From: Demequina lignilytica
GTDB taxonomy: Bacteria; Actinomycetota; Actinomycetes; Actinomycetales; Demequinaceae
Reading direction: 5' to 3'
Length of the DNA: 64,000 bases
Assembly: GCF_030418305.1 (NCBI RefSeq)
Contig: NZ_JAUHPX010000004.1
Span: 62,001 to 126,000 of the forward strand
Positions 9,002-64,000 of the stretch are shown piece by piece. The position numbers and the translations under genes were made by a program. The first letter of the stretch is position 1, and every line of letters begins with the position of its first letter. A model generated the notes under the pieces. It worked only from the letters and a program-made list of their open reading frames with translations, made no database searches and was not told the DNA's origin.

Positions 9002-9029
9002 GTCGCGTGTCGGGACGATGCGGGCCGGG

Positions 9030-46783: not shown

Positions 46784-46814
46784 CCCTGCCCCCTGCCCCC
46801 GCCCCCGCATCGTG

Positions 46815-46968
46815 CCGGGACAGTGAGTCCTCAATCCTGAGCCCCCGTCGCGCTCCCGGGACAATGAGTCCTCATCTGCTCACCTCAGGATCGGGGGCAC
46901 CTCGCCCCATGAGGACTCAGCGTCCCGGCAGCGAGCTGCCGCGCGCGACATGAGGACTGAGTGTCCCG
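46815..46968. repeat. Nested palindromic repeat (family B)
   Basis: Four copies of CGGGACANTGAGTCCTCA-like sequence are arranged symmetrically about position 46892. Two are forward (46815-46833 and 46856-46875) and two inverted (46909-46928 and 46950-46968). A minor inverted pair ATCCTGAG/CTCAGGAT (46834-46841, 46884-46891) lies within. CCGCATCGTG stands just before it. The element lies between the converging importer operon and GH65 gene and could act as a bidirectional terminator or as a mobile repeat. Confidence 0.85.
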
Positions 46969-46986
46969 ACCCCGTGAGGGCGGCGG

Positions 46987-49509
46987 CTACTCGTCGCCGT
47001 CGTGCTCCGACTCCACCACCGCGGGCAGCGACGCGGTCACCACGGAGCCGTCCGCTCGCATGGTGCCGTGGAAGGCGGCCGCGTCGGGTGCCCCCGAGAT
47101 GCGCGGGCCCTGGTCGGCGAGGGGCACCACGACCTCCTCGCCCCGCAGCACGCTCACGCGCTCGCCGCGCACCTCGACGGTCAGCCCCTGGCCCTCCTCG
47201 ACCGTGAACCCGACGGACTCCTGCTTCACGGTGACGAGCAGCCGGGTGCCGCGCTGGGTGACGCGGAACCGCATCTCGGGCCAGCTGGCCGGGAGGCGCG
47301 GGTCGAAGGACAGCTGGCCCCCATAGTCGCGCATCCCACCGAAGCCGTGCGCCAGCGCCGACCACACGCCGCCGGCCGACGCCACGTGCACGCCGTCCGC
47401 GGTGTTCGAGTGCAGGTCCGCGATGTCGACGAACAGGCCGTCCCAGAAGTAGCGCAGCGCGAGCTCGTGGTACCCGACCTCGGAGGCCATGATCGACTGC
47501 ACCACGCCCGAGAGCGTCGAGTCGCCGGTGGTGATCGGGTCGTAGTAGTCGAAGTCGGCCTTCTTCTCCTCGGCGGTGAACTCGTCGCCCTGCAGGAACA
47601 GCGCGAGCACCACGTCCGCCTGCTTGAGGACCTGGAACCGGTAGATCACGAGCGGGTGGAAGTGCAGCAGCAGCGGGCGCTTCTCGGGCGGCGTGTTCTC
47701 GAGGTCCCACAGCTCGCGCTCGTGGAACAGGGCGTCCTGCGGGTGGATCCCCAGGTCCTCGTCCCACAGGATCGCCATCGCCTCGGCGGCGGCGTCCCAT
47801 TCGGCGACCTCGGCATCGTCCAGCCCCAGCCGCGCGACCATCTTGGCGTGCTGCTCGGGCCACATGCGCGCGAGCTTGCGGACCGACGCGGCGGCGCAGC
47901 GCAGGTTGAAGCGCGCCATCACGTTCGTGTACAGGTTGTCGTTCACCACGGTGGTGTACTCGTCGGGGCCGGTCACCCCGTGGATGCGGAACGAGGACCC
48001 CTCGGACTTGGTGGACCGCCAGAACCCCAGGTCCGCCCACATGCGCGCCGTCTGCACCAGGATGTCGATGCCCTCGCGCGCGAGGAACTCGTCGTCCCCC
48101 GTGGCGGTCACGTACTTGTCGATCGCGAAGGAGATGTCGGCGTCGATGTGATACTGCGCGGTGCCCGCCGCGTAGTAGGCCGAGGCCTCCTCGCCGTTGA
48201 TGGTGCGCCACGGGAACAGCGCGCCGTGCTGGGCCAGCTCGCCCGCGCGGTCGGTCGCCTTGGGGAGCATCCGGTAGCGGTAGCGCAGGGCGTTCCGCGC
48301 GATGCCGGGCGAGGTGTAGACGAAGAAGGGCACCACGTAGATCTCGGTGTCCCAGAAGTAGTGGCCCGAGTAGCCCGAGCCGGTGACGCCCTTGGCGGCG
48401 ACCCCCTGGCCGTCGCCGCGCGCGGCCGCCTGCGCCAGCTGGAACAGGTTCCAGCGGATCGCCTGCTGGACGCGGTCGTCGCCGTCGACCTCGACGTCGG
48501 AGCGCTGCCAGAAGTCGGTCAGCCAGGCACCCTGGTCGGCGAACTGCTTGTCGACGCCCTCGGAGCGGACGCGCTCAAGCGTGCGGTGGCAGCGGTCGCC
48601 GAGCTCGCGCGCGGGCACCATGCGGGACGTGTGGTACGACACCACCTTGGTCAGCGTGAAGGTGCGGCCGGGCGCGGCACGGAACCGGAACACCTCCTTC
48701 GCGAAGTCGGGCTCGACCAGCCGGTCGCGCTCGACGTCGCCGTCGAAGTCGACGGTGTGCTCCATGGCCACCGCGATCGCCATGCCCGAGTTGCGGCACT
48801 TGTAGCCGACCAGCATGTGCTCGTCGTGCGCGAGGTGGAGCTTGGGCTCGAGCACGCGCTCGTTGAGCGCGTCCGACTTGCGGGGGTCGAAGCCCGCCTT
48901 GGTGCCCTCGGTGGTGCGGTACTCGTCCGCACCGGACTCCCGGTTGAGCAGCTGCGAGGAGACCGCGACGGGCGCCTCCTTGTCGAGCAGCGTCACCTCG
49001 AACGTCATGATCGCCAGGTGCCGCTGCGCGAACGAGACCATGCGCCGCGAGCGCACGCGGACGCGGTTGCCCGCGGGCGTGCGCCACAGCAGGTCGCGCG
49101 TCAGGACGCCCGTCTTCATGTCCAGCGTGCGCGAGTACTCGGGGAGGTCGGCCACGGACAGGAGCAGCGGCTCGTCGTCGACGTAGAGCCGGATCACCTT
49201 CGGGTCGGGGACGTTGACGATGGTCTGTCCGGTCCGGGCGAAGCCGTACGCCTCCTCGGCGTGGCGGATGCGCCACGTCTCGTGGAAGCCGTTGATGAAG
49301 GTGCCGTGCGCGTGGGCGTCGTGACCCTCCTCGATGTTGCCGCGCAGGCCCAGGTAGCCGTTGCCGACGGCGAACAGCGTCTCCGACGTCCCGAGGTCGT
49401 CGCTGCGGAACTCCGTCTCGACCAGGCGCCACGGGTCGGCGGGGAACCGCAGGCGGTCGACGTAGTCCGGCGCGCTGGTGTCCCCGAGCGAGCGCCGCGC
49501 CGCCTTCAT
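46987..49509 (-). CDS. GH65 disaccharide phosphorylase (trehalose/maltose/kojibiose type)
   Basis: This 840-residue GH65 protein has an N-terminal beta-sandwich (ETLFAVGNGYLGLRGNIEEG near residue 43, FINGFHETW) and a helical catalytic barrel with GYSGHYFWDTEIYVVPFF near residue 385. The catalytic acid is in IHGVTGPDEYTTVVNDN near residue 500, and the phosphate-binding loop is TTGDSTLSGVVQSIMA near residue 665. A small C-terminal beta domain ends it. It splits an alpha-glucosyl disaccharide with phosphate to glucose-1-phosphate and glucose. The start overlaps the upstream beta-phosphoglucomutase stop. The precise disaccharide is not readable by eye. Confidence 0.92.
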   Translation of the reverse strand: MKAARRSLGDTSAPDYVDRLRFPADPWRLVETEFRSDDLGTSETLFAVGNGYLGLRGNIEEGHDAHAHGTFINGFHETWRIRHAEEAYGFARTGQTIVNVPDPKVIRLYVDDEPLLLSVADLPEYSRTLDMKTGVLTRDLLWRTPAGNRVRVRSRRMVSFAQRHLAIMTFEVTLLDKEAPVAVSSQLLNRESGADEYRTTEGTKAGFDPRKSDALNERVLEPKLHLAHDEHMLVGYKCRNSGMAIAVAMEHTVDFDGDVERDRLVEPDFAKEVFRFRAAPGRTFTLTKVVSYHTSRMVPARELGDRCHRTLERVRSEGVDKQFADQGAWLTDFWQRSDVEVDGDDRVQQAIRWNLFQLAQAAARGDGQGVAAKGVTGSGYSGHYFWDTEIYVVPFFVYTSPGIARNALRYRYRMLPKATDRAGELAQHGALFPWRTINGEEASAYYAAGTAQYHIDADISFAIDKYVTATGDDEFLAREGIDILVQTARMWADLGFWRSTKSEGSSFRIHGVTGPDEYTTVVNDNLYTNVMARFNLRCAAASVRKLARMWPEQHAKMVARLGLDDAEVAEWDAAAEAMAILWDEDLGIHPQDALFHERELWDLENTPPEKRPLLLHFHPLVIYRFQVLKQADVVLALFLQGDEFTAEEKKADFDYYDPITTGDSTLSGVVQSIMASEVGYHELALRYFWDGLFVDIADLHSNTADGVHVASAGGVWSALAHGFGGMRDYGGQLSFDPRLPASWPEMRFRVTQRGTRLLVTVKQESVGFTVEEGQGLTVEVRGERVSVLRGEEVVVPLADQGPRISGAPDAAAFHGTMRADGSVVTASLPAVVESEHDGDE

Positions 49510-50258
49510 CCGGGCACCACCTCTCCGAGGTCCGTCACCACGACGTCCGCCCCGCCGTCCAGCAGCTCCTCGGCGCCCGCACCGCGGTCGACCCCGAGCA
49601 CCAGCCCGAAGTCGCCCGCACGGCCCGCCTGCACGCCCGACAGCGCGTCCTCGACCACCACGGCCGCCTCCTTGGGCACGCCCAGCAGCTCGGCGGCGTA
49701 CAGGTACGTGTCGGGGGCGGGCTTGCCCGGGATGCCGTGGTCGGCGGCGACCTGCCCGCTCACCACGTGCTCGAAGCGGTGCGCCAGCCCCGCGGCGGCC
49801 AGCACCGCCGGCGCGTTGCGGGAGCTCGACACCACGGCCATGGCGCAGCCGATCGACTCGAGGTGGTCGAGCAGCGCGACGGAGCCGGGGTACGGGTCCA
49901 CGCCCTCCTCCTCGAGGATCCGCGAGAACTCCGCGTTCTTGGTGTTGCCGATGCCGCAGACCGTCTCGGTGCCAGGCGCGTCGTCCGGCGTGCCGTCGGG
50001 GAGCGTGACGCCGCGGGACGCGAGGCACGCCCGCACGCCGTCGTAGCGCGGCTTGCCGTCCACGTACCGGAAGTAGTCGTCGTCCGTGTAGGCCGGGGTG
50101 ATGCCATGCGACTCGAAGTAGTCCGTGAACATCCGTCGCCACGCATCCATGTGGACGTCCGCGGTCGGGGTGAGCACCCCGTCGAGGTCGAACAGCGCCG
50201 CACCGAACGATGCGCCGGGGACCTGGGGCAGGGTCCACGGGGTGGGCAGGGACGTCAC
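49506..50258 (-). CDS. pgmB: Beta-phosphoglucomutase-family HAD hydrolase
   Basis: This 250-residue HAD enzyme has the nucleophile/acid motif ALFDLDGVLTPTADVH near residue 22, the cap domain, SSSRNAP (motif II) near residue 145, the motif III lysine in GKPAPDTYLYAAELL, and motif IV VVVEDALSGVQAG. It converts beta-glucose-1-phosphate to glucose-6-phosphate. Coupling with a GH65 phosphorylase by ATGA overlap makes an efficient intracellular disaccharide pathway and suggests an inverting, beta-G1P-forming phosphorylase. The GTG start has GGAGGGAG upstream. Confidence 0.9.
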   Translation of the reverse strand: MTSLPTPWTLPQVPGASFGAALFDLDGVLTPTADVHMDAWRRMFTDYFESHGITPAYTDDDYFRYVDGKPRYDGVRACLASRGVTLPDGTPDDAPGTETVCGIGNTKNAEFSRILEEEGVDPYPGSVALLDHLESIGCAMAVVSSSRNAPAVLAAAGLAHRFEHVVSGQVAADHGIPGKPAPDTYLYAAELLGVPKEAAVVVEDALSGVQAGRAGDFGLVLGVDRGAGAEELLDGGADVVVTDLGEVVPG

Positions 50259-50408
50259 AGGGGTCTCCCTCCGAGCGGGTTCTCAATGGAACGCGCGCAC
50301 CCCCAGTCGAATCGGCGGCGCGCGCGGCACGTCCCCTCGATACTAGCCAGCGCCACGGTGGGTGTGTCGAGGCCGGATGACGGTCGACCGCGGTCGCACC
50401 GCTGGTCC

Positions 50409-50414
50409 TATGGT
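50409..50414 (+). promoter_or_regulatory. -10 box of the pentapeptide-like gene, leaderless
   Basis: TATGGT ends 6 bases before the ATG at 50421, the same arrangement as other leaderless genes in the window. Confidence 0.5.
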
Positions 50415-50420
50415 GGGGAC

Positions 50421-51041
50421 ATGGACACCGCGCTGCTCGAGCCGATGGGGGCCGAGGACCTGAGGGACGAGGCGATCCTCGAGCGCCGCCACCTCGACGG
50501 CGCGATCATGGAGGACGTCGAGGCGCGCGACATGTCGCTCCACGAGTGCCTGATCTCCGACTGCACGGCGGGCACGGTGCGCCTCCCGGGGCTGCGGACC
50601 ACCGGGACCCGCATGATCGGATCCTCCGCCACGGCGTTCGAGATCGGGGGATGCTCCGTCTTCTCCGGGCGATTCGAGGGGGTGCGGATCGGCGTGGTCC
50701 GGGCGGACGGCTCGGACATCTCGGTCTTCCGCATCGAGTCGTCGCGCATCGACGTCCTGTCGATCCGCGAGTCGCGGATCCGCCGCGTGGACATCGTCGA
50801 CTCGCGGATCGGGCTGCTCGATCTCACGGGGACCCGCGTGCGCGAGGTGGTCGTCGAGGGCGGCTCGATCGACGAGCTGATCCCGTCCCGCGGTCGCATC
50901 GACGGCTTCGACCTGTCGCACACCCGGATCGGACGGGTCCTGGACCCGGTGGGCCTGGGCGGCGCCACTCTCACGCGCCAGCAGGCCCTGGAGCTGGGGC
51001 CGGACCTCGCGGAGCACCTGGGCGCCACGCTCGTCGACTAG
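50421..51041 (+). CDS. Pentapeptide-repeat-like beta-helix protein
   Basis: The 206-residue protein has a run of degenerate five-residue repeats through most of its length. Examples are the LSIRESRIRRVDIVDSRIGLLDLTGTRVREVVVEG stretch at about residues 112-147 and FDLSHTRIGRV near residue 170. The spacing fits a right-handed quadrilateral beta helix, as in pentapeptide-repeat proteins, although the A-[DN]-L-x-x consensus is weak. There is no signal peptide, enzyme motif or membrane segment. Some relatives mimic DNA and protect gyrase; nothing here proves that. It is monocistronic. Confidence 0.65.
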   Translation: MDTALLEPMGAEDLRDEAILERRHLDGAIMEDVEARDMSLHECLISDCTAGTVRLPGLRTTGTRMIGSSATAFEIGGCSVFSGRFEGVRIGVVRADGSDISVFRIESSRIDVLSIRESRIRRVDIVDSRIGLLDLTGTRVREVVVEGGSIDELIPSRGRIDGFDLSHTRIGRVLDPVGLGGATLTRQQALELGPDLAEHLGATLVD

Positions 51042-51063
51042 CGACGACGGCGACGAAGGCGCC

Positions 51064-51636
51064 TCAGCCCTTGGTGTGGAACCTCATCTGCGCCGCCTCG
51101 AGCCCGGAGGCGAGGATCGCCTCCACGGCGTCCGCCGCATCGTCCACCAGGAACGGCAGCTCCTTGCGCTCGACCGAGGAGAACGGCTTGAGCACGAACG
51201 CGGCGGCCTCCATGCGACCCGGCGGGCGGCCGATCCCGACGCGCACCCGCACGTAGTCGGGGGTGCCGAGCGCCTTGGTGACGTCCTTGAGGCCGTTGTG
51301 GCCGCCGGAGCCGCCGCCGCGCTTGATCTTCACGGTGCCGAACGGGATGTCGAGCTCGTCGTGGACCACGACCACGTCGGTGGGGGCGACCGAGTGGTAC
51401 TTCGCCAGCGACGAGGTGGGGCCGCCGGAGACGTTCATGTAGGACATCGGCACGCCGATCACGACCGCCTCGCCCGCGAGGCGGACCGTCGCGGTGCGGG
51501 TATGGGTCTTCTTCGACACGGAGAGGGACGATGCGCCGCGGCGCGCGAGCTCCTCGACCACCATCTGGCCGACGTTGTGGCGCGTCTCGGCGTACTCGGG
51601 CCCGGGGTTGCCCAGGCCGATCACCAGGCTGGTCAC
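51064..51636 (-). CDS. pth: Peptidyl-tRNA hydrolase
   Basis: It recycles peptidyl-tRNAs released from ribosomes. The 190-residue protein opens LVIGLGNPGPEYAETRHNVGQMV with the catalytic histidine at about residue 22. VPMSYMNVSGG is near residue 65, the conserved aspartate is in VVVHDELDIPFG near residue 95, and GGGSGGHNGLKDV follows, then RVGIGRPPGR. The GTG at 51636 is supported by GAGAGGA six bases upstream; longer in-frame starts are basic, low-complexity sequence. It follows rplY in the same direction, a common pairing. Confidence 0.95.
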   Translation of the reverse strand: MTSLVIGLGNPGPEYAETRHNVGQMVVEELARRGASSLSVSKKTHTRTATVRLAGEAVVIGVPMSYMNVSGGPTSSLAKYHSVAPTDVVVVHDELDIPFGTVKIKRGGGSGGHNGLKDVTKALGTPDYVRVRVGIGRPPGRMEAAAFVLKPFSSVERKELPFLVDDAADAVEAILASGLEAAQMRFHTKG

Positions 51637-51724
51637 GTGCGCGTCCTCTCCATGGGTCGAGCGGTGAGACGACGACGCCCGGCCCGCCCACAGTCGGGCG
51701 AGCCGGGCGAACATCGGTGAGAAC

Positions 51725-52333
51725 CTACTCCGCGTCGGCCTCGGCGGGAGCCTCGGCGGCGGCGGCCTCGGCCTCCTCCTCCTCGGCGCCGGCGCCACGG
51801 GGCACCGAGATGACGACGACGGCGGCGTCGGCGTCGGTCACGAGCTCCGAGCCCTTGGGGAGCTCGATGTCGCGGGCGTACACGCGGGCGCCCTCCTCGA
51901 GGCCCTCGATGGAGACCTCGAGCGACTCGGGCAGGTGGGTCGCCTCGGCGAGGATCTGCACGGTGGCGTGCTCGACCACGTGGATGGTGCCGGCGAAGGA
52001 CTCGCCGACGACGTGCACGGGCACGTCCACGGTGATCTTCTCGCCCTTCTTCACGAGCAGCAGGTCGACGTGCTCGATGATGCGGCGGACCGGCTCGACC
52101 TGGACGTCCTTCGCGATCGCCGTCTCGGAGCTGCCGTCGAGCTCGATCGTGAGGAGGGCGTTCGAGTGCTTGAGCGCCATCATCGTGTCGTGGCCGGGGA
52201 GCAGGATGTGCACCGGGTCCGAGCCGTGGCCGTAGATCACGGCGGGGATCTTGTGGGCGGCGCGGGCGCGACGGGCGGCACCCTTGCCGAACTCGGTGCG
52301 CTTCTCGGCGGCGAGCGTGAGCTTGTCGGACAT
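51725..52333 (-). CDS. rplY: Ribosomal protein bL25 (general stress protein Ctc)
   Basis: This 202-residue long-form bL25 binds 5S rRNA. The N-terminal L25 domain (about 1-95) includes RTEFGKGAARRARAAHKIPAVIYGHG, and the C-terminal TL5/Ctc domain (about 96-175) has ITVDVPVHVVGE and ATHLPESLEVSIEGLEEGARV. A Glu/Ala-rich tail ends it. The ATG at 52333 follows a leader of about 105 bases if the TATAGT at 52451-52446 is the -10. That long leader is unlike most genes here and may carry regulation. Confidence 0.94.
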   Translation of the reverse strand: MSDKLTLAAEKRTEFGKGAARRARAAHKIPAVIYGHGSDPVHILLPGHDTMMALKHSNALLTIELDGSSETAIAKDVQVEPVRRIIEHVDLLLVKKGEKITVDVPVHVVGESFAGTIHVVEHATVQILAEATHLPESLEVSIEGLEEGARVYARDIELPKGSELVTDADAAVVVISVPRGAGAEEEEAEAAAAEAPAEADAE

Positions 52334-52445
52334 TGCGTACTCCTCTTGCGTCAGATGGGGGGCCAGGGCAAGGCAGGGCGACTCGCATCTGCCGCGTCGA
52401 TCACGCCAAGACGTCGAAGTCCCAGCCTCGCCGAGGAACCGGACA

Positions 52446-52451
52446 ACTATA
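52446..52451 (-). promoter_or_regulatory. -10 box of rplY
   Basis: TATAGT on minus is the best -10 match in the 206-base rplY/DUF1206 spacer. It implies a leader of about 105 bases. No convincing -35 is visible. Confidence 0.45.
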
Positions 52452-52539
52452 CCTGTCGCGCGGCCCCGAGCGCCACTCCGCCGGCACCGCGGCGAGGCGG
52501 CGCGGAATATCTTCCGGCGCGGCCGCAGTTGGATCTGGC

Positions 52540-53340
52540 ATGGATACCGCATCGGCGAGCAGCGCCCGCGCCGGAACCTCGGGCGACATCTGGGAGACCG
52601 CGGCACGGGCAGGCTTCTTCGTGTCGGGGCTCCTCCACCTCATCCTCGGCTACGTGATCGTGCGCATCGGGCTCGGCTCGGGCGGCGAGGCCGACTCCTC
52701 CTCCGCGCTGTCGCGCCTCCGCGACGCGCCGGCGGGCCCCGTCATCCTCTGGGGCTCGGCCCTCGCGTTCGTCGCCCTCGCGCTCTGGCAGCTGTTCGAC
52801 GCGCTCCGCGGCCACGACGAGGCGATGGACCGGGCGAAGGCCGGCGGCAAGTTCCTGCTCTACGCCTCCCTGGCCGTCTCCGCGGCGTCGATCGCGATGG
52901 GCGGCGGCGACTCGAACGGGGACCAGCAGGCGAGCGGCATCGCCGCCACGCTCATGGGCGCGCCGGGCGGCCCCGTCATCGTGGGCGCGATCGGCCTCGG
53001 CATCCTCGGCGGTGGCGTCTACCACGTGGTCAAGGGCGCGCGGAAGAAGTTCCTCGACGACCTCAAGCCGATGCCCGGCAAGGAGCTCGGCACGGGCGTG
53101 AAGACCGTCGGCACGGTCGGCTACATCGCCAAGGGCATCGCGCTCGGCGCGGTCGGCGTGCTGTTCGTGATCGCGGCCATGACGGCCGACCCCGACCAGG
53201 CCAAGGGGATCGACGGCGGCATCGAGGCGCTGCTCGGCATGCCGGGCGGCCCGGTGATCGTGATCCTCATCGGCGTCGGCTTCGCGGCGTACGGCCTGTA
53301 CTCGTTCGCCCGTGCGCGCTACGCGAGGATGCACTCGTGA
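52540..53340 (+). CDS. DUF1206 membrane protein
   Basis: This 266-residue protein is made of three tandem DUF1206 units, each with two membrane helices. The first is around GFFVSGLLHLILGYVIVRIGLG, the second around GKFLLYASLAVSAASIAMGG, and the third around VGYIAKGIALGAVGVLFVIAAM. Each unit has an L-G-x-P-x-G-P-V-I-like turn (DAPAGPVILWGS, GAPGGPVIVGA, GMPGGPVIVIL). There is no known function. The start is ATG at 52540. Its stop overlaps the PAP2 gene start, which suggests a joint envelope role. Confidence 0.85.
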   Translation: MDTASASSARAGTSGDIWETAARAGFFVSGLLHLILGYVIVRIGLGSGGEADSSSALSRLRDAPAGPVILWGSALAFVALALWQLFDALRGHDEAMDRAKAGGKFLLYASLAVSAASIAMGGGDSNGDQQASGIAATLMGAPGGPVIVGAIGLGILGGGVYHVVKGARKKFLDDLKPMPGKELGTGVKTVGTVGYIAKGIALGAVGVLFVIAAMTADPDQAKGIDGGIEALLGMPGGPVIVILIGVGFAAYGLYSFARARYARMHS

Positions 53341-54035
53341 TCGCCGGACCGCGGGCGACCGCGCCCGCGCCCTCCGAGGTCGGCGCGGCCGCCCTCCGGC
53401 GCGTCCTGCTGCCCGCCGCGATCCTCTGGGTCACGATCGTGGGCGTCGGCTTCCTGCTGGTCGACGTCGTGCAGATCGACGAGCACGCGATCAGCCAGGC
53501 CTTCGTCGAGCTCCGCACCCCCGCGCTCGACTCGATCTCCGCCGTGGTCTCGGAGATGGCGAACACCCAGGTCATCATGGCGACCACCGTGGTGGTGGTC
53601 GCGATCGTGTGGTGGCAGTCGCGACAGTGGTGGTTCGCGGTGGTCCCCGCCACCGCGCTCGGGGTCGAGGCGGCCGTGTTCCTCACGAGCTCGCTGGTCG
53701 TGGGGCGCGAGCGGCCCGACGTCGACCAGCTGGACCACGCCCCGCCCACCTCGAGCTTCCCGAGCGGCCACACCGGCGCGTCGACCGCCGTCTACGTGTC
53801 CTTCGCCCTGATGGCGACCCGGATCAGGATCGGCGCGGTGCGCGTCACCGTGATCGTCGTGTGCGCGCTGTTCCCCGTCGCCGTCGCGCTGTCGCGCGTG
53901 TACCGCGGCATGCACCACCCGACGGACGTGATCGCCGGCCTCGCGGTCGGCACCACGTGCGCCCTGATCGGCTGGACGTGGCTGCGGGACGATGCGCGCG
54001 TCGCCTCCCGCGAGGAGGTCGCGGCGACCGCCTAG
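53337..54035 (+). CDS. PAP2-family membrane phosphatase
   Basis: This 232-residue membrane protein has about six helices and the three phosphatase motifs: GRERPDVDQLD near residue 122, SFPSGHTGASTA near residue 140, and SRVYRGMHHPTDVIAGLAVG near residue 185. Such enzymes dephosphorylate undecaprenyl diphosphate or other lipid phosphates outside the membrane. The GTG start overlaps the DUF1206 stop by GTGA. A strong terminator made from two copies of the dispersed word follows. Confidence 0.9.
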   Translation: MIAGPRATAPAPSEVGAAALRRVLLPAAILWVTIVGVGFLLVDVVQIDEHAISQAFVELRTPALDSISAVVSEMANTQVIMATTVVVVAIVWWQSRQWWFAVVPATALGVEAAVFLTSSLVVGRERPDVDQLDHAPPTSSFPSGHTGASTAVYVSFALMATRIRIGAVRVTVIVVCALFPVAVALSRVYRGMHHPTDVIAGLAVGTTCALIGWTWLRDDARVASREEVAATA

Positions 54036-54047
54036 GCATCGCACCGA

Positions 54048-54092
54048 CGCGCCGGGGCCCCCGCATCGTGACGATGCGGGGGCCCCGGCGCG
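54048..54092. terminator. Bidirectional terminator built from two copies of the dispersed word
   Basis: A 22-base perfect inverted repeat around one central base (54070). The two inner segments are CCGCATCGT (54061-54069) and ACGATGCGG (54071-54079), and the arms continue through GGGGGCCCCGGCGCG. It lies between the converging PAP2 and prs genes. This use of a repeated word as terminator stem is typical of uptake sequences in Neisseria and Haemophilus. Confidence 0.92.
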
Positions 54093-54106
54093 TGGTCGCG
54101 GAGGGC

Positions 54107-55087
54107 TCAGACGTTGCCGTCGAACAGCGACGTGACCGAGCCGTCGTCGAAGACCTCGCGGACCGCGCGGGCGATCAGCGGCGCGATCGAGAGCACGGTG
54201 AGCTTGGGGAACTGCTTGTCGTCCGAGATCGGCAGCGTGTCGGTGATGACCACCTCGGACACGCCCGAGCTCTGCAGCCGCTCGACTGCGGGGCCGGACA
54301 GGAGGCCGTGGGTCGAGGCCACGATCACGTCCTTGGCGCCGTTCTCGAACAGCGCCTCGGCGGCCTGGACGATCGTGCCGCCGGTGTCGATCATGTCGTC
54401 GACCAGCACACACGTGCGGCCCTCGACCTCACCGACCAGCTCGTGGACCTTGACCTGGTTCGGGACCGACGGGTCGCGGCGCTTGTGGATGATGGCGAGC
54501 GGCGCGCCCAGGTGGTCCGACCACTGGTCGGCGAGGCGCACGCGGCCCGCGTCGGGCGAGACGATGGTGAGGTTGCCGGGCGAGACGCGGCTCTTCACGT
54601 AGTCCGCGAGCATCGGCATGGCCCACAGGTGATCCACCGGCCCGTCGAAGAAACCCTGGATCTGCGCGGTGTGCAGGTCGACCGACATGACGCGGTCGGC
54701 GCCGGCGGTCTTGAACAGGTCCGCCATGAGGCGGGCCGAGATCGGCTCGCGGCCCTTGTGCTTCTTGTCCTGCCGCGCGTAGCCGTAGGACGGGATGATC
54801 ACCGTGATGCGCTTCGCGGAGGCCCGCTTCATGGCGTCGACCATGATGAGGTGCTCCATGATCGCCTCGTTGATGGGCGCCGCGTGCGACTGCAGGACGA
54901 AGGCGTCCGCGCCGCGCACCGACTCGCCGAAGCGCACGTACAGCTCGCCGTTCGCGAACGTGTACGCGGTGGTGGGCAGCAGGTCGATCCCGAGGCTCTC
55001 CGCGACCTTCTCGGCGAGCTCCGGGTGAGCCCGGCCGCCCGCGAGGACCAGCCTGCGCTCGCCCGGGTTCGAGATGAACGCGTTCAT
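54107..55087 (-). CDS. prs: Ribose-phosphate pyrophosphokinase
   Basis: It makes PRPP from ribose-5-phosphate and ATP. The 326-residue protein has FANGELYVRFGESVRGADAFVLQSH near residue 45, the ATP loop YGYARQDKKHKGREPISARLMADL near residue 105, DLHTAQIQGFF with the metal-binding His, and the PRPP loop CVLVDDMIDTGGTIVQAA near residue 235. Its start overlaps the glmU stop by four bases, the standard actinobacterial glmU-prs pair. Confidence 0.96.
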   Translation of the reverse strand: MNAFISNPGERRLVLAGGRAHPELAEKVAESLGIDLLPTTAYTFANGELYVRFGESVRGADAFVLQSHAAPINEAIMEHLIMVDAMKRASAKRITVIIPSYGYARQDKKHKGREPISARLMADLFKTAGADRVMSVDLHTAQIQGFFDGPVDHLWAMPMLADYVKSRVSPGNLTIVSPDAGRVRLADQWSDHLGAPLAIIHKRRDPSVPNQVKVHELVGEVEGRTCVLVDDMIDTGGTIVQAAEALFENGAKDVIVASTHGLLSGPAVERLQSSGVSEVVITDTLPISDDKQFPKLTVLSIAPLIARAVREVFDDGSVTSLFDGNV

Positions 55088-56658
55088 GCTTCTCCCTTGT
55101 CCTGTGCGGTGATCTGCGCGTCCGCGGCGGCGCGCTCCTCCTGTGCCCCCGACGATAGTGCGCCGGGGGTGGCTCCGTCCTGCGCTGCCCGTGCGGCCGC
55201 GGCAGAGGGCGTGCCGGGGCGGCGGCGCTCGACCCAGCCCTCGACCACCTGCTGCGGCACCGAGTTGAGGGCGAGCGCGCCTGCGGGCACGTCGTGTCGG
55301 ATGATCGCGCCCGCGCCGGTGTAGGCGCCGTCGCCGATGTGGACGGGGGCGATGAGGGTGTTGTCGGAGCCGATGCGCACGTGGTCGCCCACGTCGGAGC
55401 GGGACTTCGAGACGCCGTCGTAGTTGACGAAGATGGTGCCGGCGCCGACGTTCGAGTGCTCGCCCACGGTCGCGTCGCCCACGTAGGACAGGTGCGGGAC
55501 CTTCGAGTGCGCGCCGATGGTGGCGTTCTTGGTCTCGACGTAGGCGCCGATCTTGCCCTTCTCCCCCAGCACGGTGCCCGGGCGGAGGAAGGTGAACGGG
55601 CCGACGGTCGCGCCGGCGCCGATGCGGGAGTCGGAGCCATGCGTCCGGGTGACGGTCGCACCCTCGCCGACCTCGACGTCGGTGAGGGTCGTGTCGGGTC
55701 CGACGGTCGCGCCGGCGCCGATGCGGGTGACGCCCTGGAGCTGGGTGCCGGGCAGGACGGTGGCGTCCTGGCTGAGCGACGCGTCCGCGTCGATCCACGT
55801 GGTCGCGGGGTCGACCACGGTCACCCCGGCGCGCATCCATCCCTCGACGATGCGCCGGTTGAGGCTCGCGCCCGCCGCGGCGAGCTGGACGCGGTCGTTG
55901 ACACCCTCGACGGCGGCCGCGTCGGGGGCGACCATGGCACCGACCCGACCGCCGGCCTCGCGGGCGAGGGCAAGCACGTCGGTCAGGTAGAGCTCGCCCT
56001 GCGCGTTGTCGGCGGTGAGGCGGGCGAGCGCGTCGCGGAGGTGCGCGGCGTCGAAGACGTAGATGCCGGCGTTGATCTCGCGGATCGCGCGCTCCGCGTC
56101 GGTGGCGTCCTTGTGCTCGACGATCCGGAGCACCGCGCCGGAGGAGTCGCGGACGATCCGGCCGTAGCCCCCCGCGTCGGGCACCTCGGCGGTGAGGACC
56201 GTGACGGCGTTCCCGCCGTCGTGGTGCGCCTCGACAAGCGCGCCGAGCAGCGCGCCGTCCACGAGCGGCACGTCGCCGCTGGTGACCACGACCGGGCCGC
56301 TGACCTCGGTGTCGAGGTGGTGCTCCCCCGCACCGTCCGCGGCGACCGCGGCCGCGACGGCCGTCGCGTCGAGCACCGACAGGCCGCAGCGCACCGCGCT
56401 GCCGGTGCCCGGCACCTCGTCCTGATCCGCGATCAGGGCTCCCGGCGCGACCGCGCCGATGTGCGCCACCACCGCGTCGCGCTCGTGCCGCACCACGACG
56501 GCGATGCGACCCGGATCCAGCTCGGCCGCCGCGACGAGCGCGTGATGGAGCAGGGTGCGACCGGCGATGCGGTGAAGGACCTTGGGGGTGGTGGAACGCA
56601 TGCGGGTCCCGGCACCTGCGGCCAGGATCATCACGGCTGCGGGTGGAGTCGGGCTCAC
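55084..56658 (-). CDS. glmU: Bifunctional GlmU (GlcN-1-P acetyltransferase / GlcNAc-1-P uridyltransferase)
   Basis: It makes UDP-GlcNAc for peptidoglycan. The 524-residue protein has the uridyltransferase domain (about 1-260: MILAAGAGTRMRSTTPKVLH, DQDEVPGTGSAVRCGL, VVTSGDVPL, GELYLTDVL) and the left-handed beta-helix acetyltransferase domain (about 265-480: PGTQLQGVTRIGAGATVGPDTTL, KNATIGAHSKVPHLSYVGDATVG, VNYDGVSKSRSDVGDHVRIGSDN). An extra 45-residue Ala/Glu-rich tail is present. The start is GTG at 56658 with GAGGGGA upstream. It is coupled to prs. The tRNA-Gln gene lies upstream on the same strand. Confidence 0.96.
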   Translation of the reverse strand: MSPTPPAAVMILAAGAGTRMRSTTPKVLHRIAGRTLLHHALVAAAELDPGRIAVVVRHERDAVVAHIGAVAPGALIADQDEVPGTGSAVRCGLSVLDATAVAAAVAADGAGEHHLDTEVSGPVVVTSGDVPLVDGALLGALVEAHHDGGNAVTVLTAEVPDAGGYGRIVRDSSGAVLRIVEHKDATDAERAIREINAGIYVFDAAHLRDALARLTADNAQGELYLTDVLALAREAGGRVGAMVAPDAAAVEGVNDRVQLAAAGASLNRRIVEGWMRAGVTVVDPATTWIDADASLSQDATVLPGTQLQGVTRIGAGATVGPDTTLTDVEVGEGATVTRTHGSDSRIGAGATVGPFTFLRPGTVLGEKGKIGAYVETKNATIGAHSKVPHLSYVGDATVGEHSNVGAGTIFVNYDGVSKSRSDVGDHVRIGSDNTLIAPVHIGDGAYTGAGAIIRHDVPAGALALNSVPQQVVEGWVERRRPGTPSAAAARAAQDGATPGALSSGAQEERAAADAQITAQDKGEA

Positions 56659-56763
56659 CTGATCCCCTCACGAAGCGGCCCCGGTGGGGGCACGTGGCTG
56701 GTTTCGCCCCAGTCTAACGAAGCGCGGACGTCCCGCCGCGCGCGGAACGTCCCGGCGACGCGG

Positions 56764-56835
56764 CTCCGCCCAGAGGATTCGAACCTCTACCGCAGGGCTC
56801 CAAAGGCCCGCATGCTGCCATTACACCAGGGCGGA
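56764..56835 (-). tRNA. tRNA-Gln (anticodon TTG)
   Basis: On minus, 72 bases: acceptor TCCGCCC/GGGCGGA with discriminator G; anticodon loop CTTTGGA, giving UUG; T arm AGAGG-TTCGAAT-CCTCT. The anticodon stem has one mismatch at its top (C-U), which is unusual but tolerable. CCA is not encoded. Confidence 0.9.
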
Positions 56836-56895
56836 ACGGGACCGCACGGCCCCGCGCGGCGTCCAGTCTGCCAGGATTCACGGCACACTGGTCCC

Positions 56896-57528
56896 GTGAC
56901 CGCTGAGCCTCGCCGTGCGCCGCGCGCCCGGATGACCGCCAAGGAGCGCCGTGAGCAGCTCCTCACCGTCGGCCGCGCGCTGTTCGCGGAGAAGGGCTTC
57001 GAGGGCACCTCCGTCGAGGAGATCGCGACGCGGGCGGACGTGTCCAAGCCGGTGGTGTACGAGCACTTCGGCGGCAAGGAGGGCATGTACGCGGTGATCG
57101 TCGACCGCGAGGTGCAGGCCCTGCTCGGCGCGCTCACCGACGCGCTGTCCGTCCGCGCGCACCCGCGTCAGCTGGTGGAGCGCGCGGCGCTCGCGCTGCT
57201 CGGGTACATCGAGGACTCCCCCGACGGCTTCCGGATCCTGTCGCGCGACTCGCCGGTCGCGCAGACGGCCGGCACGTTCAGCAACCTGCTCGGCGACGTC
57301 TCGCAGCAGGTCGAGGGCCTCCTGGGTGCGCAGTTCCGCAAGCGCGGCCTCGACCCGTCGGTGGCACCGTTCTACTCGCAGATGCTCGTCGGCATGGTCG
57401 CGCTGGCAGGTCAGCACTGGGCGGAGGTTCGCGAGCCGTCGAAGCAGGTGGTGGCCGCGCACATGGTGAACCTCGCGTGGAACGGCCTGTCGACGCTCGA
57501 GCGCGACCCCGGCCTGCCCGGCGACTGA
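56896..57528 (+). CDS. TetR-family transcriptional regulator
   Basis: This 210-residue regulator has the N-terminal TetR helix-turn-helix: RREQLLTVGRALFAEKGFEGTSVEEIATRADVSKPVVYEHFGGKEGMYAVIVDRE at about residues 19-73. The ligand domain is all-helical and contains LVERAALALLGYIEDSPDGFRILSRDSP. Such regulators in actinobacteria often control lipid metabolism, but the target is unknown. GTG at 56896 follows a CACACT box by six bases, suggesting a leaderless start. ATG 56932 is an alternative that would remove a basic leader. Confidence 0.85.
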   Translation: MTAEPRRAPRARMTAKERREQLLTVGRALFAEKGFEGTSVEEIATRADVSKPVVYEHFGGKEGMYAVIVDREVQALLGALTDALSVRAHPRQLVERAALALLGYIEDSPDGFRILSRDSPVAQTAGTFSNLLGDVSQQVEGLLGAQFRKRGLDPSVAPFYSQMLVGMVALAGQHWAEVREPSKQVVAAHMVNLAWNGLSTLERDPGLPGD

Positions 57529-57633
57529 GGCACCGTCGCTGCGACGCCGCGTCGGGACTAGGAACCGGCGGGACGGCGTTGTAGGTTTCCACCGGGCGCC
57601 GCGCGGGCGCCCTCGGACCCAGGGGGGACAGTC

Positions 57634-58059
57634 GTGATCAAGGGCTTCAAAGAGTTCATCATGCGAGGCAACGTCGTCGATCTCGCGGTCGCCGTCGTCA
57701 TCGGCGCCGCATTCGGCGCGGTGGTCACGTCGCTGGTCGACAACATCATCAACCCGCTGATCGCCGCGATCTTCGGCAAGCCCGACCTGTCGGGGATCCT
57801 GCTGTGGACCCTGAACGACGGCGGCACGCCCGGCGACCCGGCCGACGACGCGGTGCTCGCGATCGGCACGTTCCTCACGGCGATCCTCAACTTCCTCATC
57901 ATCGCCGCCGCGATCTACTTCGCGATCGTGCTGCCGCTGAACAAGCTCGCCGAGCGGAAGGCGAAGGACGAGCCCGCGCCGGACGAGGCCGTGTCCCCGA
58001 CCGAGATCGAGATCCTCACCGAGATCCGCGACGCCATCAAGGCGCAGTCCGACCGGTAG
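57634..58059 (+). CDS. mscL: Large-conductance mechanosensitive channel
   Basis: This pentameric channel releases solutes on hypo-osmotic shock. The 141-residue protein opens with the amphipathic GFKEFIMRGNVVDLAVAVVIGAAFGAVVTSLVDNIINPLIAAIFGK (TM1 with its glycine-rich gate). A periplasmic loop follows, then TM2 AIGTFLTAILNFLIIAAAIYFAIVLPLN and a charged C-terminal helix bundle ending SPTEIEILTEIRDAIKAQ. The GTG start is preceded by AGGGGGG. It is monocistronic. Confidence 0.96.
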   Translation: MIKGFKEFIMRGNVVDLAVAVVIGAAFGAVVTSLVDNIINPLIAAIFGKPDLSGILLWTLNDGGTPGDPADDAVLAIGTFLTAILNFLIIAAAIYFAIVLPLNKLAERKAKDEPAPDEAVSPTEIEILTEIRDAIKAQSDR

Positions 58060-58101
58060 CGGCGGCCACGGCCCGGCGAACGGGACGATGCGGGGCCCGG
58101 G

Positions 58102-59034
58102 TCAGTCCTGGACCAGGACCGTGCCGGCGGTGGGGCCGGTCGCCGTCAGCACGGCATCCGCGACGCGCGCCGCCTTGAGGTGGGCCGCGATCGCGAGCGC
58201 GTGCTGGCGCGAGCGTGCGAGCGCGACCACGGTGGGACCGGATCCGGAGACCATCGCGGCGCAGGCCTCGGCCTCCTCGGCCACGTCGAGCACCTTCTCG
58301 AGCCGCGGCATGAGGGAGAGCGCCGGGCCCTCGAGGTCGTTGATGACGGCGCGTCCGAGCGCGACCGGGTCACCCGCCATCAGCGCGGTCATGACGGGGG
58401 CCTCCACGGCCAGGTCGTTCTGCACCTGCTCGCGTGCGGCGATGCGGCGGTCGTACTCCGCGTAGACGCGGGGCGTCGACAGCCCCTCCGCCTGGGTCGC
58501 GACCACCCAGTGGAACTGCCCGTGGCTCATCACCGGCGTCAGCTGGTCCCCGCGCCCGACACCCATGGCCGTGTGGCCGTGGAGGCTGAACGGCACGTCG
58601 GACCCCAGCCTCGCCGCTAGCCGCGCCAGCTCGCCGCGGGTCGCGCCCACGTCCCAGGCCTCGGCGCACGCGACCAGCGCCGCTGCGGCGTCGGCCGAGC
58701 CGCCTGCCATCCCGCCCGCGACCGGCACGCCCTTGACGATCCGGAGGTCGACCCCGTCCGCGATCCCGTACGACGACGCGACCAGCTCGGCCGCGCGCCA
58801 CGCGAGGTTCGACTCGTCGACGGGCACCCCGGACGCGTCCACGGGCGAGCCCGCGGCGGCGTCGACGGTCAGCGTGATGCGACCGTCGGTGCGCGCCGTG
58901 GCCTCGACGGTCTCGAACAGGTCGACGGCCTGGAACACCGTCACCAGCGGGTGGAAGCCGTCCTCGGCGACCGGGCCCACGGTGAGCTGCAGGTTCACCT
59001 TGGCGGGCGCCTTCGCTCGGACGGTCCGGGTCAT
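58102..59034 (-). CDS. ispE: 4-Diphosphocytidyl-2-C-methyl-D-erythritol kinase
   Basis: This GHMP kinase of the MEP isoprenoid pathway has 310 residues. VRAKAPAKVNLQLTVGP is at the start, DESNLAWRAAEL near residue 75, the ATP loop KGVPVAGGMAGGSADAAAALVA near residue 100 and LGSDVPFSLHGHTAMGVGRGD near residue 145. C-terminal MVSGSGPTVVALA is the third GHMP motif. The start is ATG at 59034. It follows rsmA on the same strand with a 26-base gap, the usual rsmA-ispE order of actinobacteria. Confidence 0.94.
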   Translation of the reverse strand: MTRTVRAKAPAKVNLQLTVGPVAEDGFHPLVTVFQAVDLFETVEATARTDGRITLTVDAAAGSPVDASGVPVDESNLAWRAAELVASSYGIADGVDLRIVKGVPVAGGMAGGSADAAAALVACAEAWDVGATRGELARLAARLGSDVPFSLHGHTAMGVGRGDQLTPVMSHGQFHWVVATQAEGLSTPRVYAEYDRRIAAREQVQNDLAVEAPVMTALMAGDPVALGRAVINDLEGPALSLMPRLEKVLDVAEEAEACAAMVSGSGPTVVALARSRQHALAIAAHLKAARVADAVLTATGPTAGTVLVQD

Positions 59035-59060
59035 GGCCCTAGCCTGCCAGACAGTCCCGG

Positions 59061-59912
59061 TCAGGTGCGGGCGGCGGCGAGCGCCTCGGCGATGCGCACG
59101 AAGTCGTCGATGCCCAGCTGCTCGCCGCGGGTGAGCGGATCGATGCCGGCCGCCCGCAGGGCGTCCTCGGAGGCCGCCGGGGAGCCGGCGAGCGTCGCCA
59201 ACGCGCCCCGCAGCGCCTTCCGCCGCTGCGCGAACGCGTGGTCGATCACCGCGAAGACGTCCTCGCGCGCGACGGCGGTCTCCGGAACGGCGCGCCGGTC
59301 CATGAGCACCAGCGCGCTGTCGACGCGCGGGACGGGCCAGAAGACCGCGCGCTTCACGTCGCCTGCGCGACGCGTCGCGCAGTACCACGCGGCCTTTGCC
59401 GACGGCACGCCGTACGTGCGGGAGCCGGGCGGCGCCGCGAGCCTGTCGGCGACCTCGGCCTGGACCATCACGAGCACCCGCTCGAGGGTGGGGAAGGTCT
59501 CGAGGAAGTGGAGGATCACCGGCACCGACACGTTGTAGGGCAGGTTCGCGACCAGCGCACGGGGCGGCGACGGAAGGGTCTCGACGCGCAGGGCGTCGGC
59601 ATGGACCACGTCGAAGCGGTCGACGGCCTCGGGCGCGCGCTCGGCGACGGTCGCGGGCAGCGCGCCGGCCAGCACCGGGTCGATCTCGACGGCGGTGACC
59701 TCCGCGCCGGTGGCGAGCAGCGCGAGGGTGAGCGACCCGAGCCCGGGACCCACCTCGACCACGCGGTCGCCCTCGCCCACCTCGGACAGGCGCGCGATGC
59801 GCTGCACCGTGCCGGCGTCGACCACGAAGTTCTGGCCCCACTTCTTGTGGGGCGCCGTGTTCAGCGACTCGGCGAGTCCGCGGATGTCGGAGGGGCCCAG
59901 CAGCCGAGCCAC
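59061..59912 (-). CDS. rsmA: 16S rRNA (adenine1518/1519-N6)-dimethyltransferase
   Basis: It dimethylates two adjacent adenines of helix 45. The 283-residue protein opens [21 protein letters not shown], then the SAM site [16 protein letters not shown] near residue 52, VTAVEIDP, the catalytic [16 protein letters not shown] near residue 120, and [20 protein letters not shown] with VPRVDSALV. The start is GTG at 59912, a few bases after the stop of the Rpf-like gene. The rpfB-rsmA-ispE order is typical of actinobacteria. Confidence 0.95.
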
Positions 59913-59916
59913 CGGT

Positions 59917-60723
59917 TCAGTACCAGCCCTTGGTCTGCGAGTGGTTCCACGCCCCGCAGGGCGTGCCGTAGCGGCCGGCGATGTAGCCCAGGCCCCACCG
60001 GATCTGGGTGGCCGGGTTCGTCGCCCAGTCGGCGCCTGCGGTGGACATCTTCGAGCCCGGCAGCGCCTGCGGGATGCCGTACGCGCTCGAGTACGGGTTG
60101 TCCGCGTACTGGTTCCAGCCGGACTCCTTGGTGAACAGCGCCTCGAGGCAGTACCACTGGTCGCCCGTCCAGCCGTACATGTCGGCCGCCATCTGCTGGC
60201 CGAGCGCACGGTTGCCGGTCGGGTTCGCCGCGGCGGTGCTGCGCGGCACCGACGGCGCCTCCTTGGTGCCCACCGCGATGACCTCGTCCTGAGCCTCGCT
60301 CACCGTGACCGTCATCGACTGCACGCGGGAGACCTCGACGCCGCCGACGGTGGTGACGTCGTAGGTGGTGATCGTCTGGCCGGCGACACCCTCGGTGACG
60401 ACCTTCTCGGTGCCCTTCGCGAGGTTCGGGTCCTCGGACTTCACCGTCTTCGGCTCGACGGTGCTCTCCTCGGTCTCCGTGGTGACCACGGCGCCGGCCT
60501 CGGCGTCGGACTGGATCTCCGGCAGGCTCGCGACGTCAGCCGACACGGTCAGCGGCGCGTCGGCGGTGAGGGCGGGAACGGCAGCCGCGGCGATCGAGCC
60601 GACGGCGAACGATGCGGTGGCGAGCCCGATGCCGACCTGCGTCAGCACACGGTTCCGCGTGCCGCGCCGGGCGCGGCGCTCACGGCGGCCTCCCGGCATC
60701 GGGGTGGTGCGGCGGTAGCTCAC
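59917..60723 (-). CDS. Resuscitation-promoting-factor-like protein with G5 domain
   Basis: This 268-residue exported protein has a basic N-terminus and one signal or anchor helix ([21 protein letters not shown]). A linker follows, then a G5 domain at about residues 90-150 ([29 protein letters not shown]), which binds cell wall. The C-terminal lysozyme-like transglycosylase domain has [37 protein letters not shown] with the catalytic glutamate in TKESGWN. It resembles RpfB minus the DUF348 repeats. The GTG start has GAGAGGA upstream, and a hairpin lies in the leader. It precedes rsmA and ispE. Confidence 0.88.
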
Positions 60724-60741
60724 TGAGGTCCTCTCGGTTCG

Positions 60742-60763
60742 CGCCTCCGAGGGGGTGGAGGCG
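60742..60763 (-). promoter_or_regulatory. Leader hairpin of the Rpf-like gene
   Basis: CGCCTCC (60742-60748) and GGAGGCG (60757-60763) form a 7-base-pair stem about 18 bases before the GTG. Upstream at 60776-60805 is the most AT-rich patch of this region (ACTTTTATCTCATATTGATA), the likely promoter. Confidence 0.5.
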
Positions 60764-60855
60764 TGATGTCTGACGACTTTTATCTCATATTGATAACGGT
60801 CTGCGCCAACCGCACTTGAGCCCTTGGTCCTGTGAGATCGCCCACATGAGGCGGT

Positions 60856-61704
60856 CTACCAGGGACCGTACAGGTTCTCCGACGTCTCCGAGATCGTGGT
60901 GCAGACGGCCTCCGGATCGGCCTGAAGCACCTCCGCGACCGTCCTGAGGGTGAGCGGCACCAGGTACGGGGCGTTGGGCGCGCCCCGGTGCGGGTGGGGC
61001 GTGAGGTAGGGCGCGTCGGTCTCGACCAGGACGCGCCCGAGAGGCGTGACGGCGAGGGCGGCGCGCAGGCCCGCGGCGTTCTTGAACGTCACCGTCCCGG
61101 CGAAGCTCAGGAAGTACCCGCGGTCGACGCACAGGCGCGCCATGCCGGCGTCGCCGGAGAAGCAATGGAAGACCGTGCGCTCCGGCGCCCCGTCGCGCTC
61201 GAGCACCTCGAGCACCTCGGCGTGCGCGTCGCGGTCGTGGATCTGCAGCGGGAGGCTGAGCTCCTTCGCCAGCGCGATGTGGTCGCGGAAGGAGCGGATC
61301 TGCGCGTCGCGTCCGTCCTCCGAGGTCCGGAAGAAGTCGAGCCCGGTCTCGCCGATCACCCGGATCCGCGGATGCCGCGCGAGCGACGCGATCTCGGCGA
61401 GCGCATCCTCGTAGCCGACGCCCGACTCGTGGGTCCCGTCCGCGTGCAGCGGGGCCTCGTTGGGGTGCAGCGCGATACCGCCCACCATCGCGGGGTACCG
61501 GTCCAGGGCGTCGACCGTCCACCGCGCGGTCTCCAGCTCGCAGCCGATCTGGACCACCCGGTCGACGCCGACCGCGGCGGCGTCGGCCAGGCGCTGCTCG
61601 ACGCTGCGACGGTCGTCGCCGGCGTGGTGGTCGAGGTGCGTGTGGTTGTCGACCACCGGCGCGGGCAGCGGCGCGGGCGCCGGCGGCCAGGCTCCGTCGC
61701 GCAT
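60856..61704 (-). CDS. tatD: TatD-family metal-dependent hydrolase
   Basis: This 282-residue TIM-barrel nuclease has VVDNHTHLDHH near residue 17 (metal His-x-His), GIALHPNEAP near residue 76, VIGETGLDFFR near residue 115 (metal Glu), LPLQIHDRDAHAEVL, VFHCFSGD and LVETDAPYLTPHPHRG near residue 235 (metal Asp). Family members have 3'-5' DNase or RNase activity. It lies three bases downstream of metG and upstream of the Rpf-like gene, a common actinobacterial order. Confidence 0.94.
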   Translation of the reverse strand: MRDGAWPPAPAPLPAPVVDNHTHLDHHAGDDRRSVEQRLADAAAVGVDRVVQIGCELETARWTVDALDRYPAMVGGIALHPNEAPLHADGTHESGVGYEDALAEIASLARHPRIRVIGETGLDFFRTSEDGRDAQIRSFRDHIALAKELSLPLQIHDRDAHAEVLEVLERDGAPERTVFHCFSGDAGMARLCVDRGYFLSFAGTVTFKNAAGLRAALAVTPLGRVLVETDAPYLTPHPHRGAPNAPYLVPLTLRTVAEVLQADPEAVCTTISETSENLYGPW

Positions 61705-61707
61705 CGG

Positions 61708-63498: not shown

Positions 63499-63547
63499 GC
63501 GGACCATCCTAGTGACGCCGGAGGGGACCCACGGGGCGGGCAGCCGC

Positions 63548-64000
63548 TCAGGAGTAGTCGGGAGCGGCCGGCAGGCCGAAGAGCTCCTCGAGGGTGGTGA
63601 CGTCCGACTCGTGGAGCGCGGTCGCGAGCTCCACGCCCACGTAGCGCAGGTGCCAGGGCTCGTAGATGTAGCCCGTCACCTCCTGCTTGCCCTCGGGATA
63701 GCGGATCACGAAGCCGTGCTCCCACGCGTGCTCGGCGACGTAGCGACCGGCGGCGGTGGTGCCGAAGCACGCCTTGAGGTCGCACACGCCGTTGTGGATG
63801 TCGGCGGCGAGCCCCGTCTGGTGCTCGGAGAAGCCGGGGCGGGCCGAGTACCGGTCCGCGCTCGCCTGACCCGAGCGGTTCACGTATCCGTAGTAGAGGG
63901 AGGACTGGGTCGCGTGGTCGCGGTAGGCGGTCGACACGGTGAACGGGGCCCCCGCCGCCACCGCCGCCTCGTGCAGGGCCGACATCGCCGCCGCGGCCTC
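63548..64000 (-). CDS. VanY-type D-alanyl-D-alanine carboxypeptidase, 5' part outside window
   Basis: This C-terminal fragment of an M15 peptidase trims peptidoglycan stem peptides. The zinc-site motifs are all present: [20 protein letters not shown] (SxxR and Q), [15 protein letters not shown] (His and Asp ligands), and [13 protein letters not shown] (catalytic Glu and His ligand). The open frame runs through base 64000, so the start, and presumably a signal or anchor, lie beyond the window. The in-frame ATG at 63985 is internal, not a start. Confidence 0.9.

Follow-up and report, generated by a model that had tools for sequence, protein, structure and literature searches.

Passages of PMC3630211 and PMC12616744 describe the DNA uptake sequences (DUS) of the Neisseriaceae as asymmetric words of 10 to 12 bases that are present in hundreds to thousands of copies, differ between species as dialects, and lie inside as well as between genes, with inverted pairs at gene ends tied to terminators. 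High numbers of word pairs in gene-end hairpins are mentioned in a section of PMC3630211, and the Neisseria DUS is given as GCCGTCTGAA in a part of PMC6370729. The USS of the Pasteurellaceae, which appears as AAGTGCGGT in an excerpt of PMC12616744, is portrayed in parts of PMC2346458 and PMC12616744 as short and dispersed, free of a general strand bias, and biased in reading frame and toward gene ends. Among the Actinobacteria, Micrococcus luteus is a high-GC Gram-positive species with comEA and comEC whose competence proceeds via Flp/Tad pili, and the portion of PMC6370729 devoted to it mentions no uptake word. In the literature searched, we found no description of an uptake sequence in a Gram-positive host and no uptake or transformation experiment in Demequina, and searches that included the words as letters gave no report of an uptake-like word in Demequina among the matches listed.

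We found in Demequina, a high-GC Gram-positive genus, a dispersed and strand-balanced word that is kept up at the DNA level, comes in dialects, is enriched 3' of genes, and is accompanied by genes for uptake machinery. As far as the sources above go, the word resembles the Neisseriaceae DUS in length, asymmetry, dialects, and its genic and intergenic copies but differs from it in sequence, in the Gram-positive host, and in the rarity of inverted pairs. With the USS, as those excerpts present it, the word shares being short, dispersed, strand unbiased, and biased in frame and toward gene ends, whereas its sequence is another, no extended flanking motif stood out, and the host is Gram-positive. 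M. luteus is like Demequina in being high-GC and Gram-positive and in having comEA and comEC, but the Demequina pilus is type IVa-like. Since the word occurs in hundreds of dispersed copies and in species-specific spellings, as the uptake words of two Gram-negative families do, we regard it as a candidate Gram-positive system. We consider it likely that the word is the local dialect of an uptake-sequence-like Demequina motif and that one locus, at 54047 to 54093 of the window (the whole stretch of 64,000 nucleotides of Demequina lignilytica DNA that was analyzed), represents its recruitment into a bidirectional gene-end hairpin.

Abundance, upkeep, and placement of the word

The word takes the form GG-ACGATGCG(G), with the consensus GGACGATGCG and a preferred extra G or C, and occurs about 0.5 times per kb, balanced between the strands. 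The original prediction of a dispersed word was borne out, as the window holds 48 copies of ACGATGCG (25 on the plus strand and 23 on the minus strand) compared to 6.2 expected from dinucleotides. A 400-kb portion of another contig contains 181 copies (94 and 87 by strand), and GGACGATGCG is present there 96 times compared to 0 to 43 times for its one-base neighbors, the commonest of which (43 copies) has C at the first base. Genome-wide, the two strands have 280 and 264 copies of GGACGATGCGG, compared to 0 and 1 for the word read backward. Spacing over the 400 kb was close to random, with no regional clustering seen. No extended flanking motif stood out, and a mobile repeat element was rejected because the flanks are not conserved beyond approximately 12 bases. 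Word-poor stretches of the 400 kb could have pointed to foreign DNA, but the largest word-free gap, 13.6 kb, is within chance (P = 0.52).

In the reading frame of their gene, nearly half of the coding 8-mer copies (93 of 195) are read as GAC GAT GCG, which is what a by-product of a protein or codon preference (Asp-Asp-Ala) would look like. Such an origin, or one in base composition, is nevertheless scarcely credible. Synonymous codon shuffling of 415 called genes gave 13.0 copies of GGACGATGCG (standard deviation, 3.6) compared to 100 observed, and the synonymous spelling GGACGACGCG is depleted, with 19 copies observed and 37 in shuffles. Frame GAC GAT GCG was observed 93 times compared to 10 in the shuffles and frame GCA TCG TC 40 times compared to 1.35, while frame CGC ATC GTC showed no excess in these genes (47 versus 49.6). 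The shuffling led us to reject codon or protein bias as the source of the word, and two further observations argue in the same direction: convergent and codirectional gaps are denser in the word than genes are, and the spelling varies between congeners. The genes were called with our own codon-score script, not with a published gene finder; stops are exact and starts approximate. The word is overrepresented genome-wide in a way that neither composition nor codons explain, as would be expected of an uptake sequence.

Chi-like and KOPS-like signals are also short, dense, and specific to clades, and a role of the word in recombination or segregation rather than in uptake would share these properties. 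Signals of this type are expected to be strand biased along the replichore, however, and the strands are balanced both genome-wide and in every one of eight 50-kb blocks, which rejects or at least weakens a strand-biased signal. A word of 10 to 12 bases that is enriched at gene 3' ends is also a poor fit, and we consider this explanation quite unlikely. The absence of strand bias, with copies inside and between genes, is the pattern of an uptake sequence.

Word density is 1.76 per kb between convergent genes, 1.03 in codirectional gaps, 0.46 in coding sequence, and 0.17 in divergent gaps. Approximately 86% of the sampled 8-mer copies (197 of 229) are intragenic, and the window has 13 intergenic sites holding 14 copies. 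Single copies of the consensus were located between convergent genes as follows.

9013 to 9022, plus strand, single GGACGATGCG between convergent genes
19162 to 19171, plus strand, single GGACGATGCG between convergent genes
58083 to 58092, plus strand, single GGACGATGCG between convergent genes

The excess over shuffles and the densities in the gaps therefore indicate that the DNA word itself is maintained, being tolerated or favored 3' of genes and avoided before them. The sharp contrast between convergent and divergent gaps could also be attributed to a binding site for a chromosome-organizing or transcription-terminating Demequina protein whose specificity has drifted into dialects. This is unlikely given the large majority of copies inside genes, the near-random spacing, and the lack of regional clustering.

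Other repeated words were observed. The palindrome CCCAGCTGGG occurs at 3098, 29438, 36799, and 63242 of the window, far over expectation, and the palindrome CGCGATCGCG, which is resembled by iterated palindromes elsewhere, occupies ten window sites from 5569 to 58186. The genome additionally overrepresents CGGGGGAG/CTCCCCCG and AGGCGCTCG. In 40 kb of genome G009 (C1:1-40000), many repeats of the palindrome TTGGTACCAA and of GATTGGTACC stand out.

The hairpin between prs and the PAP2 gene

The locus had been proposed from its sequence to be a terminator in which two copies of the word face each other around a single base between converging genes, and this arrangement was confirmed. Its features are the following.

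53337 to 54035, plus strand, PAP2-superfamily phosphatase gene (Pfam PF01569, E = 5e-20)
54047 to 54069, no strand, left arm of the perfect inverted repeat
54062 to 54069, minus strand, word copy CGCATCGT (which is ACGATGCG on the minus strand)
54071 to 54093, no strand, right arm of the perfect inverted repeat (center base, 54070)
54071 to 54078, plus strand, word copy ACGATGCG, within TGACGATGCGG
54107 to 55087, minus strand, prs, ribose-phosphate pyrophosphokinase (Pfam PF13793, E = 1e-48)
55084 to 56631, minus strand, glmU-like gene upstream of prs (Pfam hexapeptide and NTP transferase)

The inverted repeat at 54047 to 54093 is perfect, with two 23-nt arms flanking the single base G54070, across which the 8-mers CGCATCGT and ACGATGCG oppose each other at the hairpin center. 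The 22-base stem originally placed at 54048 to 54092 is indeed perfect but extends one pair further on each side. The full consensus GGACGATGCG (or GGACGATGCGG) is absent from both arms, the right one having TGACGATGCGG and the left one TCACGATGCGG. A chance repeat was rejected, as approximately 7e-7 equally perfect repeats are expected per 64 kb at the composition of the window. The RNA of the plus strand forms a stem of 22 pairs and a UGA loop at -68 kcal/mol (z = -8.2), a value equaled by 0 of 200 shuffles, and that of the minus strand folds at -66 kcal/mol, which also beats all 200 shuffles.

The PAP2 gene stops at 54035, 11 nt ahead of the hairpin, and the converging prs gene stops at 54107, 13 nt from it on the other side, which places a stable GC-rich stem-loop shortly after the stop codon of both genes. 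A strong GC-rich stem and a short loop just past the stop codon are also found in Rho-independent terminators. Unlike these, the Demequina prs hairpin has no T-run behind either arm, and classical Rho-independent termination is therefore unproven for this stem. A scan of positions 46000 to 64000 found no T-tailed terminators, and in such a genome transcription may also be terminated by hairpins that lack a T-run. The search of the window against Rfam gave only two tRNAs and left the hairpin unmatched. One word copy and its complement would have become the apical part of this bidirectional hairpin, whose most likely role is to terminate the transcription of both prs and the PAP2 gene or to block exonucleases for them. 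Termination is the step that we infer here, next to the observed position, stem, paired changes, and dialect match in relatives. The proposed terminator thus stands as a hairpin just past both converging genes, with a stem that appears to be kept by paired changes across relatives, but not as one with a T-tract.

Uptake words were said in the original prediction to be often exapted as terminators in Gram-negative bacteria. The host is Gram-positive, and the frequency did not carry over either. Strong hairpins are present in 15 of 38 convergent gaps in 464 kb, and only the one at 54047 to 54093 is built from the word, which is too few for frequent exaptation to hold in Demequina; in six other convergent gaps, the word lies beside a strong hairpin and not inside it. 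Word pairs therefore do get recruited into gene-end hairpins, but rarely.

Pairs of the word within 30 nt of each other were listed genome-wide, yielding 21 head-to-head, 20 tail-to-tail, and 26 direct pairs. All three numbers exceed the approximately 6.8, 6.8, and 13.6 expected from an even scatter of an estimated 1597 word copies. The 41 inverted pairs do not clearly outnumber the 26 direct ones (P = 0.09), and neither their share in intergenic sequence (28/41 versus 13/26; P = 0.20) nor that in convergent or codirectional gaps (24/41 versus 11/26; P = 0.22) differs clearly. At convergent gene ends, however, inverted pairs are overrepresented (10/41 versus 1/26; P = 0.04). The existence of further inverted pairs at gene ends, on which the prediction had been staked, was thus found, with a preference for convergent ends and no clear excess over direct pairs. 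The second inverted pair of the window lies within a gene.

32238 to 32909, minus strand, MazG-domain gene holding the pair
32400 to 32424, no strand, second inverted word pair of the window, not a gene-end hairpin

The single word-built hairpin among 15 and the P values of 0.09 and 0.22 are what would be seen if the locus were an ordinary GC-rich gene-end hairpin that contains the word by density chance, the motif being real and unconnected to the end of transcription. The overrepresentation of inverted pairs at convergent ends speaks against this explanation, as does the recurrence of the word in the same hairpin of relatives (see below), and we consider it possible but rather doubtful.

Dialects and the prs hairpin in relatives

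By glmU, the nearest named relatives are Demequina soli, Demequina sp. SYSU T00192, and D. rhizosphaerae (83 to 85% identical). Among 47 Demequinaceae genomes, GGACGATGCGG is present in 325 to 807 copies in 15 and in 1 to 78 copies in the remaining 32, compared to 0 to 3 per strand for the reversed-word control. The order sample comprised 396 genomes, and in the 361 of them outside the Demequinaceae, GGACGATGCGG was not enriched, with at most 50 copies in each. Within this sample, the word is restricted to the genus Demequina. Related genomes thus have the word itself or one of its dialects and the more distant ones of the sample are without it, as is the case for uptake sequences.

A pattern-free scan for overrepresented words showed that congeners spell the word differently (GGCCGATGCG, GGCCGATGCC, GGCCGATGCT, and GGGACGATGCC). 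Endings in -CC and -CT are among these spellings besides that of GGCCGATGCG, and the spelling in G037 is GCCCGACGCTG; in G004, G034, G043, and G044, the scan revealed no evident word of this kind. In this, the spellings resemble the dialects of the neisserial DUS. Whole-genome counts reach 1203 for GGCCGATGCG, 1118 for GGCCGATGCC, and 736 for GGCCGATGCT. Dialect labels were assigned to the 47 genomes by counting four spellings with a threshold of 300 copies.

D1, GGACGATGCGG, 15 of 47 genomes, at least 300 copies
D2, GGCCGATGCG commonest, 7 of 47 genomes, at least 300 copies
D3, GGCCGATGCC commonest, 7 of 47 genomes, at least 300 copies
D4, GGCCGATGCT commonest, 2 of 47 genomes, at least 300 copies
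No dialect, 16 of 47 genomes, none of the four spellings reaching 300 copies

Two spellings exceed 300 copies in G005, G010, G017, G025, G029, G031, and G040. G004, which is otherwise word poor, has three same-strand copies of GGACGATGCGG with 27-base spacing at C1:77718-77782.

The region after prs was read in 45 of the 47 genomes, G001 and G046 (a prs fragment) being left out. The best prs hairpin contains the D1 word in 11 of the 15 D1 genomes, the exceptions being G017, G020, G028, and G035, and in none of the 30 other genomes read; in G008, the D1 words are reversed in orientation. Both arms carry GGCCGATGCC in G007 (D3) and GGCCGATGCT in G005 (D4), and apart from the word these two hairpins are closely alike, the dialect having changed in both arms. 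The genome's own dialect is thus present in the prs hairpin of 13 genomes read. This recurrence of the D1 word, with other dialects in the same hairpin elsewhere, argues against inclusion of the word by chance. In the remaining D2, D3, and D4 genomes read, the own-dialect word is absent from a strong hairpin after prs; the best prs hairpin of G040 is weak and contains CGCCGATGCGG. D. soli, D. rhizosphaerae, D. globuliformis, and D. flava have a similar arrangement after prs, and in D. sediminicola and Demequina sp. B12 the hairpin is there with the full word missing.

In an alignment of ten D1 hairpins, 96.7% of the cells are paired and five pairs are changed on both sides, a degree of stem pairing that 0 of 500 shuffles reached. 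The ten were selected because they fold, and the paired changes therefore support a conserved stem structure, short of proof. At the prs hairpin, changes in structure and in dialect go hand in hand.

Uptake machinery and the candidate reader

The genome has its own type IV pilus operon with pilB, pilT, pilC, a major pilin, two minor pilins, a prepilin peptidase, and pilM. A 595-residue protein encoded after the minor pilins was assigned its role by position, without a Pfam match, and two more genes in the places of pilN and pilO were likewise named by position without a Pfam match. The genome also possesses comEC, adjoined by a gene for a ComEA-like protein with SLBB and helix-hairpin-helix domains. 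The PilT family is present in all 47 Demequinaceae genomes and the ComEC family in 46 of 47. The host therefore has the type IV pilus and ComEC of organisms with uptake sequences; as these genes are also found in genomes without an evident word, their presence discriminates nothing and proves little. A short asymmetric word would pile up if DNA bearing it were preferentially taken up, presumably by way of the type IV pilus, ComEA, and ComEC, and then recombined; preferential uptake is the part of this scheme that we infer.

Explaining the dialect labels takes 13 changes on the pilus-gene tree, built from PilT, PilC, and PilM of 40 genomes, and 6 on the tree of prs from 30 genomes, the two trees covering different genome sets. 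The pilus-gene tree includes 40 of 41 clusters, with G043 (cut by a contig end) left out. The pilins of the operon therefore do not behave like the reader of the word. The minor-pilin genes have two arrangements, of approximately 140 plus 195 residues or approximately 600 plus 211 residues, and dialect D1 occurs with both. As neither this arrangement nor the pilus tree is linked to dialect, the candidacy of the minor pilins as the dialect reader is weakened. For the receptor ComP of the Neisseriaceae, no counterpart was identified in Demequina, where the pilus genes do not track the dialect.

We lean toward an independently evolved DNA-uptake self-recognition in Demequina, which would be the third such system and the first to be known from a Gram-positive host, with at least four spellings that switch between close relatives, a reader encoded outside the type IV pilus operon, and gene-end hairpins in which a switch of dialect rewrites both arms. 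If this is true, a dialect system in a cultivable Gram-positive genus would mean that self-recognition arose a further time in cells that have no outer membrane, and it would allow tests of dialect switching and of the word's reader.

Two further observations concern the pilus genes. The minor-pilin arrangements differ among closely related Demequina, as if they had been exchanged. A second gene for a PilT-like ATPase lies apart from the pilus operon, at L335:6650-7738, and is also present in most members of the family.
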